DNA of 64,000 nucleotides from Candidatus Melainabacteria bacterium (GTDB taxonomy: Bacteria > Cyanobacteriota > Vampirovibrionia > Obscuribacterales > Obscuribacteraceae). Position numbers and translations under genes: made by a program. Shown one piece after another: positions 59,029 to 63,730 of the stretch. The notes beneath the pieces were generated by a model, which was not told where the DNA came from, searched no databases, and saw nothing but the letters and a program-made list of their open reading frames with translations. The stretch covers positions 62,001-126,000 of the forward strand of contig DAIDIP010000003.1 of NCBI GenBank assembly GCA_027451745.1, read 5' to 3'. Position 1 is the stretch's first letter. Every line of letters begins with the position of its first letter.

Positions 59029-59102
59029 CGGGGCGTAGCGCAGCTTGGTAGCGCGTCCGTTTCGGGTGCGGAAGGCCGGAGGTTCAAATCCTCTCGCCCC
59101 GA
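59029..59102 (+). tRNA. tRNA-Pro (anticodon CGG)
   Basis: A 74-nt tRNA. The acceptor stem is CGGGGCG with CGCCCCG plus discriminator A; the D-arm is GCGC-AGCTTGGTA-GCGC; the anticodon arm is TCCGT-TTCGGGT-GCGGA with CGG at 34-36; the T-arm has GGTTCAAATCC. CCA is not encoded. Its 3' half is repeated 1.07 kb downstream (see the att repeat). Confidence 0.95.
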
Positions 59103-60826: not shown

Positions 60827-61250
60827 TTATGGTATCAATGCTAATACACGAGCGGGGCTACCTGTGCCGCCAGCAATTTTTAATGGCGCAAAAATTCCCA
60901 CAGCACCTGTCGACGGTAATTGATCAAGATTGGTGAGATTTTCTGCCATAAATAATCCTTTGGACAAAACTAATTTGCGCATAGGAAAATCTTCCGATGG
61001 TCCACAATCAATTGATAGAGTATCAATGCCTAAAGCACTTACGATGATCAACTAAGTATTGCGCAGCTTCCAAAGAAAAACCTGTGTAATGCATAACGTC
61101 TTTATTGTCAGCATTACAGTATTGTCCATCCAAAGAAAAACGTTTACTCCAACCAGTCAAAAGCAAAATAGCAGCGTGAGGGGGAATCGTATTCTTCTTC
61201 TCAAATTCATTTACTTTTTCAAATGCAAATCTATTTGAATTTCTAAACAT
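60827..61250 (-). pseudogene. Frameshifted cyclase-family (kynurenine-formamidase-like) remnant
   Basis: Two overlapping minus-strand frames make up the C-terminal half of a PF04199-type putative cyclase. 61250-61023 reads PPHAAILLLTGWSKRF, then TGFSLEAAQYLVDHRK. 61051-60827 continues with ALGIDTLSIDCG, NLTNLDQLPSTGAVGIFAPL, then KIAGGTGSPARVLAL. One frameshift lies at about 61030-61045. The N-terminal half with the metal-binding H-x-G-T-H-x-D is missing. It is read as a decaying gene, although a sequencing error could explain the frameshift but not the truncation. Confidence 0.8.
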
Positions 61251-61535
61251 CGTTCACTCTCCCAGCCATGCAAAACAATTCTAGTTGCTTTGAAAAAGTA
61301 TTTGACAGCAGTATCACTTGTAAACGTTTTTCTGTTCTTGACTATATAGGGATTTAAACAGGATCGAAAAAATTGTTTTGAAGTCTCTTTGCAAGCGATA
61401 AATCATATTTATGTCAAGTTACTTTTTTTGTAGAGCTCTTTGTAATTAGCAAAATTGTATAAGCCTTGCCAATTGCCTATTTTCAAAGCTTTTGGATTTT
61501 TATTAACTATTACTAATGGACAATGGTAGATAAGC
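61251..61535. other. Intergenic sequence before the RiPP operon leader
   Basis: AT-rich, with no ORF or recognisable RNA. It should contain the promoter of the downstream operon, but no single -35/-10 pair stands out. Confidence 0.4.
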
Positions 61536-61618
61536 GGTTAACCTTACCAGTATATGCTTTCGTGAGGTTAATCACCGTCACTGGTGGCAAAGACTGAGAT
61601 CAATTAGACCTCATTTTT
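61536..61618 (+). promoter_or_regulatory. Leader RNA with mutually exclusive hairpins (attenuator/riboswitch-like)
   Basis: Segment GGTTAACCTTAC (61536-61547) can pair with GTGAGGTTAATC (61562-61573) in a 12-bp stem with two G-U pairs. The same downstream segment (from T61563) can instead pair with 61603-61613 (ATTAG-ACCTCA, one bulged G), followed at once by TTTTT, i.e. a terminator. A small inner hairpin CACC-GTCACT-GGTG sits in the terminator loop. The two folds exclude each other, as in riboswitches and attenuators. The structural gene starts 49 nt past the T-run. No known riboswitch class was recognised. Confidence 0.55.
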
Positions 61619-61667
61619 AAGTCCGAATGAAAGTATCGTATCACTAGTGTTAATAAGGAAATAAAAG

Positions 61668-61904
61668 ATGAACATCAAAGATGTAACTTCAACTTTATTA
61701 GTTTCTGCTGCCTTGACCGGTTTACTAGCTGGCTCAGTTGGCGCTCAAGAAACCAAAGATGAAGCAACAACAACAGTGAAAACTGAAAAGACCGAAAAGA
61801 AAACCGCTAAAAAATGCGGAAAAGAATCCAAGAAAAAATGCACCGAAAAAGCTTCTTGTAAAGGCAAAGAAGGTTGCAAGGGTTCTAAAGAAGAAACCAA
61901 GTAA
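61668..61904 (+). CDS. Bufferin/HvfA-like Cys-Lys precursor peptide with signal peptide
   Basis: A 78-aa peptide. The Sec signal (TSTLLVSAALTGLLAGSVGA) has a cleavage site after residue 26. A Thr/Lys/Glu spacer follows, then a Lys-rich core with four cysteines at 50, 58, 64 and 70, the last two in CKGKEGCKG. In known families such cysteines are modified by the adjacent MNIO enzyme, for instance to thiooxazoles that bind copper. AAGGA lies 9 nt before ATG 61668. It is the first gene of the three-gene operon. Confidence 0.8.
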   Translation: MNIKDVTSTLLVSAALTGLLAGSVGAQETKDEATTTVKTEKTEKKTAKKCGKESKKKCTEKASCKGKEGCKGSKEETK

Positions 61905-61915
61905 CACTACGCAAT

Positions 61916-61952
61916 TAAGGACAGACTAGTATTAAGGTGCTGTCTGTCCTTA
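61916..61952 (+). terminator. Intercistronic hairpin between precursor and MNIO genes
   Basis: An 11-bp perfect stem, TAAGGACAGAC with GTCTGTCCTTA, has a 15-nt loop. It lies 12 nt past the precursor stop and 32 nt before the MNIO start. No T-run follows, so it may protect or partly terminate the precursor mRNA, giving more peptide than enzyme. Confidence 0.6.
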
Positions 61953-61983
61953 TAAGCGCAGTAGGAAATTTTGGAGACAGCCC

Positions 61984-62841
61984 ATGCCAGCAAATAAATT
62001 TAATGGCTTCACAAATTTGGGCATAGGCATCGGTCTAAGAGTTACTCATTACCAGGATATTCTCAACGAAAAACCGCCTATAGATTGGCTCGAAATTATC
62101 TCTGAAAATTTCATGGTCGATGCTGGAAGACCACTCGAAATATTGGAAATGGTTTTAGAACATTACCCAATAGTTCAGCATGGCGTCTCATTATATTTAG
62201 GTTCAAGCGATCCTTTAAATCGCCAATATCTTTCAAAGCTAAAAGCACTAACGCAAAGAACAAAAACGCCTTTTGTTTCTGACCATCTATGTTGGGGAAG
62301 TGTTGATGGCAGTTATAGCCATGACTTATTACCCCTGCCTTATACATTTGAAGCAGCTGCTCACACAGCCGAACGTATAAAGGCAGTACAAGGGTTTTTA
62401 GAAATTCCTGTGTGCATAGAAAATGTGAGTAGCTATGCAGAGTTCCATGACTCGGAAATGTCCGAATGGCAATTTTTAACTGAAGTAAGTGAAAGAGCTG
62501 ATTGTGGCATACTGCTCGATATAAATAATGTCTATGTCTCAGCACAGAATCACGGATTTGATCCATACGAGTACCTCCACAATGTTCCACTGAATCGAGT
62601 TGCTCAGTTGCATATTGCCGGGCATTCGAAGTATAAGAAATATATTCTCGACACACACAGCGCTCCTGTTATAGATGAGGTCTGGCAGCTATACAGCGAA
62701 GTCATTAAATCAATTGGCAAAACTAATACATTATTAGAATGGGATGCTGATATTCCAGCTTTAGAGACTGTGCATGCCGAGGCCTTAAAGGCCAATCAAT
62801 TTATTGAAGCTGTTGAAAATCCTTTGTCAAAATCCGCATAA
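61984..62841 (+). CDS. MNIO-type (DUF692) multinuclear non-heme iron oxidase
   Basis: A 285-aa protein of the MNIO family (MbnB, BufB, HvfB), which oxidises cysteines of a precursor peptide using two or three irons. The TIM-barrel motifs are all visible: GLRVTHYQDIL, DWLEIISENFM, HGVSLYLGSSDPLNR, VSDHLCWGSVDG, ENVSSYAEF, GILLDINNVYVSAQNHGFDP and LHIAGH. Metal-ligand candidates are H66, H101, E146, D179, N182, H190, H210 and E252. SD GGAGA lies upstream of ATG 61984. The DUF2063 gene starts 1 nt past its stop. Confidence 0.92.
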   Translation: MPANKFNGFTNLGIGIGLRVTHYQDILNEKPPIDWLEIISENFMVDAGRPLEILEMVLEHYPIVQHGVSLYLGSSDPLNRQYLSKLKALTQRTKTPFVSDHLCWGSVDGSYSHDLLPLPYTFEAAAHTAERIKAVQGFLEIPVCIENVSSYAEFHDSEMSEWQFLTEVSERADCGILLDINNVYVSAQNHGFDPYEYLHNVPLNRVAQLHIAGHSKYKKYILDTHSAPVIDEVWQLYSEVIKSIGKTNTLLEWDADIPALETVHAEALKANQFIEAVENPLSKSA

Positions 62842-62842
62842 A

Positions 62843-63730
62843 ATGGCTAAAGGGTCTACTACTACCTTGTATAAGCTGCAGTCTTTAATGGCAGCTGCCA
62901 TTATGCGCCCATTGCATGGTGACGACATGCAACAGACATGGATCGATGGCAGTTCTATGAGTGATTATGCTGCTAAATTTATCAAACCAAATAAACAATT
63001 GAGTAGTTTTGAACGTCTTGAACTTTATAATCGTCAGTACTGGTATCGTTTACTCGAATCATTACAAGACGATTTTCCAGGAGTCAATGCGCTGCTTGGT
63101 CATAGACGTTTTGAAGCATTGACTATAGCGTACTTACTAAAGCATCCTTCGCGCTCTTTTTATCTAAACCATCTGGGAAAATATTTGCCTGATTTTATCA
63201 GGGAAGAATCTGTATTGACCGGTATTGACCAACAAGCGGCTTACGATATTGCGTCTTTAGAATATGCCGAAATTAAGGCTTTTGATGCGGCATCAAAAGA
63301 AGTACTCCGACCAGAATCTTTTAAGATGCTGTCACCTGAAAAAATAATTTTACAAACACAACCTTATTTGTCAGTGTTGGAGAGTAATTATGCCGTTGAT
63401 AATTTTCTTTTGCAATTAAACAAGGCTCATGATCAATCAGTTGAATCTAACGCTGTATCAGATCGAACTGTAAGATTTGATCAGTCTATTACACCAAAAA
63501 AACAACGCATCTATTTAGCGATACATAGACAAAACAATACTATTTACTATAAGCGCTTAGATAAAGACCAATTTCTTTTGCTGAAATCGCTTATGTCTGG
63601 CAAATCTTTGGCTGGGGCTTGTAGTGAATTATTTTCCACAAAAAAAGACATTAAAGACCAAGAAAAGCTCGCTCTCAAAGTTAATAAATCTTTTGCTATA
63701 TGGATGGAACTTGGCTGGTTTTGTCAGTAG
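62843..63730 (+). CDS. DUF2063 (BufC/HvfC-like) partner of the MNIO enzyme
   Basis: A protein of about 295 aa. The N-terminal DUF2063 domain is clear: SFERLELYNRQYWYRLLESL, then QDDFPGVNALLGHRRFEAL and LLKHPSRSFYLNHLGKYLP, then DF. The C-terminal 150 residues are the variable winged-helix-like part (LAIHRQNNTIYYKRLDKDQF). In MNIO clusters this partner recruits and presents the precursor peptide to the enzyme. ATG 62843 is preferred to TTG 62804, which would overlap the MNIO gene. Confidence 0.88.
   Translation: MAKGSTTTLYKLQSLMAAAIMRPLHGDDMQQTWIDGSSMSDYAAKFIKPNKQLSSFERLELYNRQYWYRLLESLQDDFPGVNALLGHRRFEALTIAYLLKHPSRSFYLNHLGKYLPDFIREESVLTGIDQQAAYDIASLEYAEIKAFDAASKEVLRPESFKMLSPEKIILQTQPYLSVLESNYAVDNFLLQLNKAHDQSVESNAVSDRTVRFDQSITPKKQRIYLAIHRQNNTIYYKRLDKDQFLLLKSLMSGKSLAGACSELFSTKKDIKDQEKLALKVNKSFAIWMELGWFCQ

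Follow-up and report, generated by a model that had tools for sequence, protein, structure and literature searches.

Bufferin clusters are arranged in the order bufA-bufB-bufC (PMC12452194). The closest described systems to the locus reported here are Buf2 clusters such as Caulobacter vibrioides BufA2B2C2, whose BufA2 precursors, the Cys-Lys captophorins, are recognized by six (or 12) conserved cysteines. The Lys-Cys, or EGKCG, captophorins (HvfA/oxazolin, fontiphorin and gonophorin) follow the same operon logic and probably the same 5-thiooxazole chemistry, and the BufA1 (DUF2282) bufferins also combine a Sec signal and four cysteines with an MNIO/DUF2063 operon. Here we describe an operon from a 64,000-nucleotide stretch of DNA (the window) of a Candidatus Melainabacteria genome (G000). 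By our analysis, its product is very likely a small secreted peptide of the bufferin (captophorin) kind that is chemically modified and binds metal. The operon is probably of the Cys-Lys (BufA2) type, with a precursor core reduced to a single three-Cys module. A sequence-only reading had placed the DNA in a non-photosynthetic relative of Cyanobacteria, and the family mates are indeed Obscuribacterales/Melainabacteria contigs.

Operon organization and flanking DNA

The locus is a genuine three-gene operon and follows the bufA-bufB-bufC order. Its genes, all on the + strand, encode a 78-aa secreted Cys/Lys peptide (61668..61904), a 285-aa MNIO (multinuclear non-haem iron oxidative enzyme; 61984..62841) and a 295-aa DUF2063 partner (62843..63730). 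All open reading frames lie where the sequence-only reading had put them, and both the frames and the profile matches agree with its call of a RiPP operon in which MNIO and DUF2063 genes accompany a Cys-Lys precursor bearing a Sec signal. The likely DUF2063 start is the ATG at 62843, rather than the mechanical TTG at 62804. Because this ATG begins one base past the MNIO stop codon (62839-62841), the two genes appear tightly coupled; a gap of 79 bases separates the precursor from the MNIO gene.

The operon is flanked by a divergent cyclase-like gene and by ligD in the window genome and in the same-genus genome G001 alike, where it occupies the same place, adjoining ligD. Neither neighbourhood has a DoxX gene, a sigma factor or a metal gene adjoining the operon. 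The cyclase/arylformamidase-like gene is in pieces in the window (60827-61250, - strand) and a full 336-aa ORF in G001 (L114:6318-7328); the break in the window is either genuine or an assembly artefact. The window's ligD (DNA ligase D type; 63793 onward, L113:294-3166) reads as two overlapping frames of 215 and 758 aa, whereas that of G001 is a single 942-aa ORF; the split is a frameshift or an assembly error.

On the 5′ side of the operon, alignment with G001 revealed a possible regulatory or promoter element, GATAAGCGGTTAACCTTA (61529..61546, + strand), that is identical in both genomes while the surrounding DNA has diverged. It contains the palindrome GGTTAACC and is present as a single exact copy in the genome. 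A role for GGTTAACC as a regulon site was rejected, as its 3-mismatch copies are no commoner than in the control, and sites from a sigma-70 promoter scan were no commoner than in shuffles. Between the precursor and MNIO genes lies a strong stem-loop, AAGGACAGAC...GTCTGTCCTT (61916..61952, + strand), picked out by its folding z-score (about -4.4 in the window and -11 in G001) and by comparison with relatives. Hairpins of 10-18 pairs follow the precursor stop in most clade members and in many sphingomonad Buf2 operons, their position kept and their sequences unrelated. The stem-loop is a probable RNA-processing or attenuation element that would raise precursor output relative to the enzyme. An Rfam scan of the region returned only a tRNA at 59029-59102.

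Enzyme, partner and precursor

The bufB-like MNIO matches PF05114 (1e-107) and passes the NCBIfam equivalog model for BufB, MNIO_BufB (352.3 bits, cut-off 310); it falls under the cut-offs of the HvfB, ApyH, ChrH and MbnB models. Its nearest solved structure is 3bww (2.7e-49). The metal-ligand and catalytic positions (H66, D100, H101, E146, D179, N182, H210, D223, H225, E252 and D254) are all intact and at least 97% conserved over 110 homologues, consistent with the earlier claim that the metal-binding motifs are kept. Alignment through 3bww matches D254 with the catalytic base reported for FonB, and the residue after it, A255, with a FonB selectivity site (PMC13097082) that is Phe in EGKCG enzymes and Asp in many proteobacterial Cys-Lys enzymes. 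The selectivity residues of the window MNIO are R19, V20 and A255, the second N-terminal Arg being replaced by Val. Since V20 and A255 stand for Arg and Phe, the enzyme is not of the EGKCG (HvfB/FonB) type, and the label 'HvfABC-like', first given to the operon, names the wrong subgroup (PMC13097082).

Downstream, the bufC-like DUF2063 and RRE-type partner (PME1) was assigned from PF09836 (60.1 bits over a gathering score of 27.2; 2.6e-16), an AlphaFold model and a PDB fold match. It scores 34 bits against the HvfC NCBIfam model, below the cut-off of 142. The AlphaFold model (9 sequences) has two domains (pLDDT 83.5, pTM 0.80), and its top PDB fold matches are TglHI entries 8hi7_A and 8hci_A (E 2e-6 and 9e-6), of which the partner chain, TglI, is the only significant fold match. 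That fold search also matched RRE proteins (TbiB1, lasso B1) weakly, short of significance when taken on their own. A PDB sequence search with the BufC profile gave no match.

The bufA-like precursor, MNIKDVTSTLLVSAALTGLLAGSVGAQ-ETKDEATTTVKTEKTEKKTAKKCGKESKKKCTEKASCKGKEGCKGSKEETK, was defined by reading its ORF, by comparing relatives by eye and by its G001 orthologue. Residues 1-26 form a Sec signal with a likely SPase I site, VGA|Q (judged by eye), and a Thr/Glu/Lys-rich linker leads to the C-terminal core. Cysteines lie at 50, 58, 64 and 70, with gaps of 7, 5 and 5, so that the half-core C58-x5-C64-x5-C70 is joined by a non-conserved C50. The orthologue, in the same place in G001, is 77% identical and keeps C58, C64 and C70; C50 is Ala in this only same-genus genome, and the Lys after Cys, a hallmark of the class, is gone at all three conserved sites. 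All four cysteines that the sequence-only reading counted are therefore present, but only three are conserved in the sister genome, and the 7-5-5 spacing it took as a signature breaks down within the genus, where the first cysteine is missing.

Between the window and G001, the precursor has dN 0.18 and dS 1.17, which marks it as a genuine protein-coding gene maintained by purifying selection. Its dN/dS is ~0.15 overall, 0.25 in the mature part (dN 0.25, dS 1.02) and 0.04 in the signal part (dN 0.05, dS 1.45), ratios that are rough with dS near saturation. The C-x5-C-x5-C spacing turns up in ~1% of core shuffles and in 6 of the 961 open frames of the window, and the conserved position beside the enzyme is stronger evidence than these spacing statistics. 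A search of the peptide against precursor families, as had been suggested from the sequence, was run with the available models: there was no Pfam match up to E = 1 and no NCBIfam match above cut-off, and the BufA2 model NF050166 found nothing in the peptide or in the whole of G000. That genome encodes one MNIO in total, and no second precursor or other CKGKxxC-type peptide was found in it; the window MNIO and precursor are thus each other's only candidates.

Taken as a whole, the operon has what is expected of a bufferin/captophorin system: a BufB-type MNIO with an intact metal site, DUF2063 and RRE downstream, and a Sec-signal Cys precursor upstream. It shares with Buf2 the bufABC order, the BufB-equivalog MNIO and the DUF2063-RRE partner, and its peptide resembles BufA2 in its Sec signal and in cysteines at 6-residue steps with CKG motifs. 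In contrast to BufA2, it has four cysteines, three of them conserved in the genus, rather than six, and it lacks the tail and last cysteine of classical BufA2 as well as any score on the BufA2 model. The window peptide would work like a bufferin, yet is not a BufA2 member by the curated test.

Membership of DUF2282 was rejected, with no Pfam match; unlike BufA1 (PF10048), the peptide has no DUF2282 similarity and departs from that class in how its cysteines are spaced and in the folded tail. EGKCG membership failed likewise, as the peptide has no EGKCG repeats and the enzyme carries R19/V20/A255 instead of the Arg/Arg/Phe of the HvfA/oxazolin group. On both points profile and residue checks bear out the sequence-only reading. 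The period-7 SCKGKEG repeat class, common in other Obscuribacterales, was also set aside, its MNIO forming a separate branch, ~45% identical, with RR/RDQN selectivity sites. A second Obscuribacterales MNIO branch, from family and order relatives (L091-L093, L095-L099, L102-L111), goes with period-7 (E/D)GSCKGK repeat precursors; its enzymes keep two Arg as in EGKCG enzymes and have Gln instead of Phe, selectivity residues that suit a core in which each Cys has Glu at -3 and Lys at +1.

Core size among relatives and proposed function

Relatives were gathered through the enzyme, giving 80 loci from named genomes, and genomes of the same genus up to the same class were covered as well. The closest MNIOs, 62-70% identical, belong to Obscuribacterales, Planctomycetota, Verrucomicrobiota and Acidobacteriota, and directly upstream of each is a gene for a small, secreted, cysteine-containing peptide. 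These precursors mostly have a 6-Cys core, HDCKGKNDCKGKGGC..DNGCKGKNSCKGKGGC, built from two C-x5-C-x5-C modules joined by a CxxxDNGC-type linker, and the 6-Cys relatives match the BufA2 model (NF050166) with E values from 5e-9 to 5e-6 (27-38 bits, below the 60-bit cut-off). The BufA2-like precursors (L002-L012, L084, L085, L087-L089), whose enzymes are 65-70% identical to the window MNIO, share the C-x5-C-x5-C module CKGKNSCKGKGGC with the window; whereas they carry two modules joined through the DNG linker (L006 one), the window has a single module whose flanks have diverged, and a further Cys that is not conserved. On the evidence of the enzyme tree and these neighbouring precursors, the window precursor derives by reduction from the Cys-Lys/BufA2 class already known; it is a modest variant and not a new system. 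The earlier suggestion of a new precursor subfamily holds in that no curated family matches, but it had overlooked this class, the third of the known ones.

About one module remains in the window, G001 and G003 precursors, the G003 core reading C-x5-S-x5-C-x5-C, and G002 has C-x5-C only; its peptide is lipoprotein-like and is encoded next to a fused MNIO-DUF2063 protein. In Chthoniobacter, L006 (3 Cys) and L011 (6 Cys) have near-identical enzymes, with exactly one module lost from L006. Family members thus have cores of 6, 4, 3 and 2 Cys. With only 3 or 2 cysteines in the cores of further relatives, shrinkage recurs and has happened more than once, the exact number hinging on inner branches of the enzyme tree. 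This natural series from one enzyme clade extends the bufferin-type RiPPs, with the L006/L011 pair presenting a clean loss of one 3-Cys module between near-identical enzymes, and it poses how many cysteines, and which neighbours, a Cys-Lys MNIO needs, and how metal capacity relates to core length.

The most likely function is modification of Cys to 5-thiooxazole, Sec export and copper buffering. By analogy with characterised relatives, the RRE domain of BufC would hold the precursor N-terminus, and BufB, with its iron cluster and O2, would remove four hydrogens from each modified Cys and the preceding residue, yielding 5-thiooxazole, with a loss of 4 Da for each Cys and absorbance at ~305 nm. 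Exported by Sec and freed of its signal at VGA|Q, the peptide would buffer surplus copper by binding Cu(I)/Cu(II) on the outer side of the inner membrane. Having three or four cysteines, it should carry less copper per peptide than its 6-Cys relatives. Two haem-copper oxidase matches in G000 indicate that the cell uses O2 and copper. A CPx copper ATPase above the TIGR01511 cut-off is tentatively absent from this 96% complete genome, whose best P-type ATPase (768 aa) has no CPx motif; 26 of 50 relatives have such an ATPase over the cut-off. Three DoxX-like matches in G000 all lie away from the operon. The missing curated family match, the failure of the BufA2 model to find anything in this genome, the loss of Lys after Cys in G001, the lack of a metal gene in the operon and the lack of DoxX nearby all count against the main reading.

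A further counterpoint is that the related enzyme FonBC left a single-repeat substrate unmodified (PMC13097082); modification of a core with one module might likewise be poor. We tentatively consider a minimal bufferin in which three thiooxazoles at exact 6-residue steps would form a single defined copper site, unlike the multi-site relatives, and the enzyme would have adapted to cope with a core that lacks a strict Cys-Lys dyad. If so, core length (2, 3, 4 or 6 Cys) may tune metal capacity across Obscuribacterales. Decay offers a different account of the same core: the system would be heading for loss, and its remaining cysteines would be poorly modified or escape modification altogether. In favour of this, C50 and the Cys-Lys dyads differ between the two genomes of the genus, family cores range over 6, 4, 3 and 2 Cys, and dN/dS is higher in the mature than in the signal region (0.25 against 0.04). 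However, dN/dS is still well under 1, both genomes retain an intact enzyme and an intact partner, and three cysteines are kept in exact 6-residue register, which makes decay rather improbable.

It is also unlikely, if conceivable, that the peptide is modified and exported but that its main role concerns a metal other than copper, or a stress (zinc, gold, mercury, oxidants). The neighbourhood has no copper gene, wider metal roles have been proposed from MerC fusions and gold-induced operons (PMC12452194), and redox genes were seen by eye near some related operons, such as a peroxiredoxin-like gene at L016 and DsbD/thioredoxin-like genes at L006 and L011. Yet those bufferins/captophorins of this enzyme branch that have been characterised to date either bind copper or respond to it (PMC12452194, PMC13097082). 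That the MNIO pair acts on a substrate encoded elsewhere, with the small ORF incidental, would suit a peptide without a curated family match; adjacency and order conserved across phyla, and a genome with no second CKGKxxC-type peptide and no BufA2 match, make it very hard to credit. Copper buffering by a reduced BufA2-type peptide is the reading we favour.

Other MNIO arrangements in relatives

In a Kapaibacterium locus, the gene for a 4-Cys CKGK peptide is separated from the MNIO gene by a peroxiredoxin-like gene (L016:2893-3949). MNIO-DUF2063 fusions of ~600 aa are found at L090:517-2316 (G002) and L135:1975-3828 (G030; DUF2063 putative), natural single-chain versions of the enzyme-partner pair. 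Other Obscuribacterales carry MNIO-DUF2063-like-methyltransferase fusions, at L133:3222-5669 (G045:C8; Pfam-confirmed) and L134:2436-4859 (G011:C5; by eye), and 768-858 aa frames, candidates for the same fusion, also occur in G013, G028, G037 and G048. The L133 and L134 fusions lie directly downstream of a long Cys-repeat protein without a signal peptide (L133 1223-2044, 274 aa; L134 1276-2400, 374 aa), with repeats such as PSDLVKCVAMLPHQELLQPDFVKCSPRLPH and HFACVARSD. These long proteins may represent a new family of MNIO substrates that also undergo methylation, one that did not appear in the literature examined, and the methyltransferase fusions may be more novel than the window operon.
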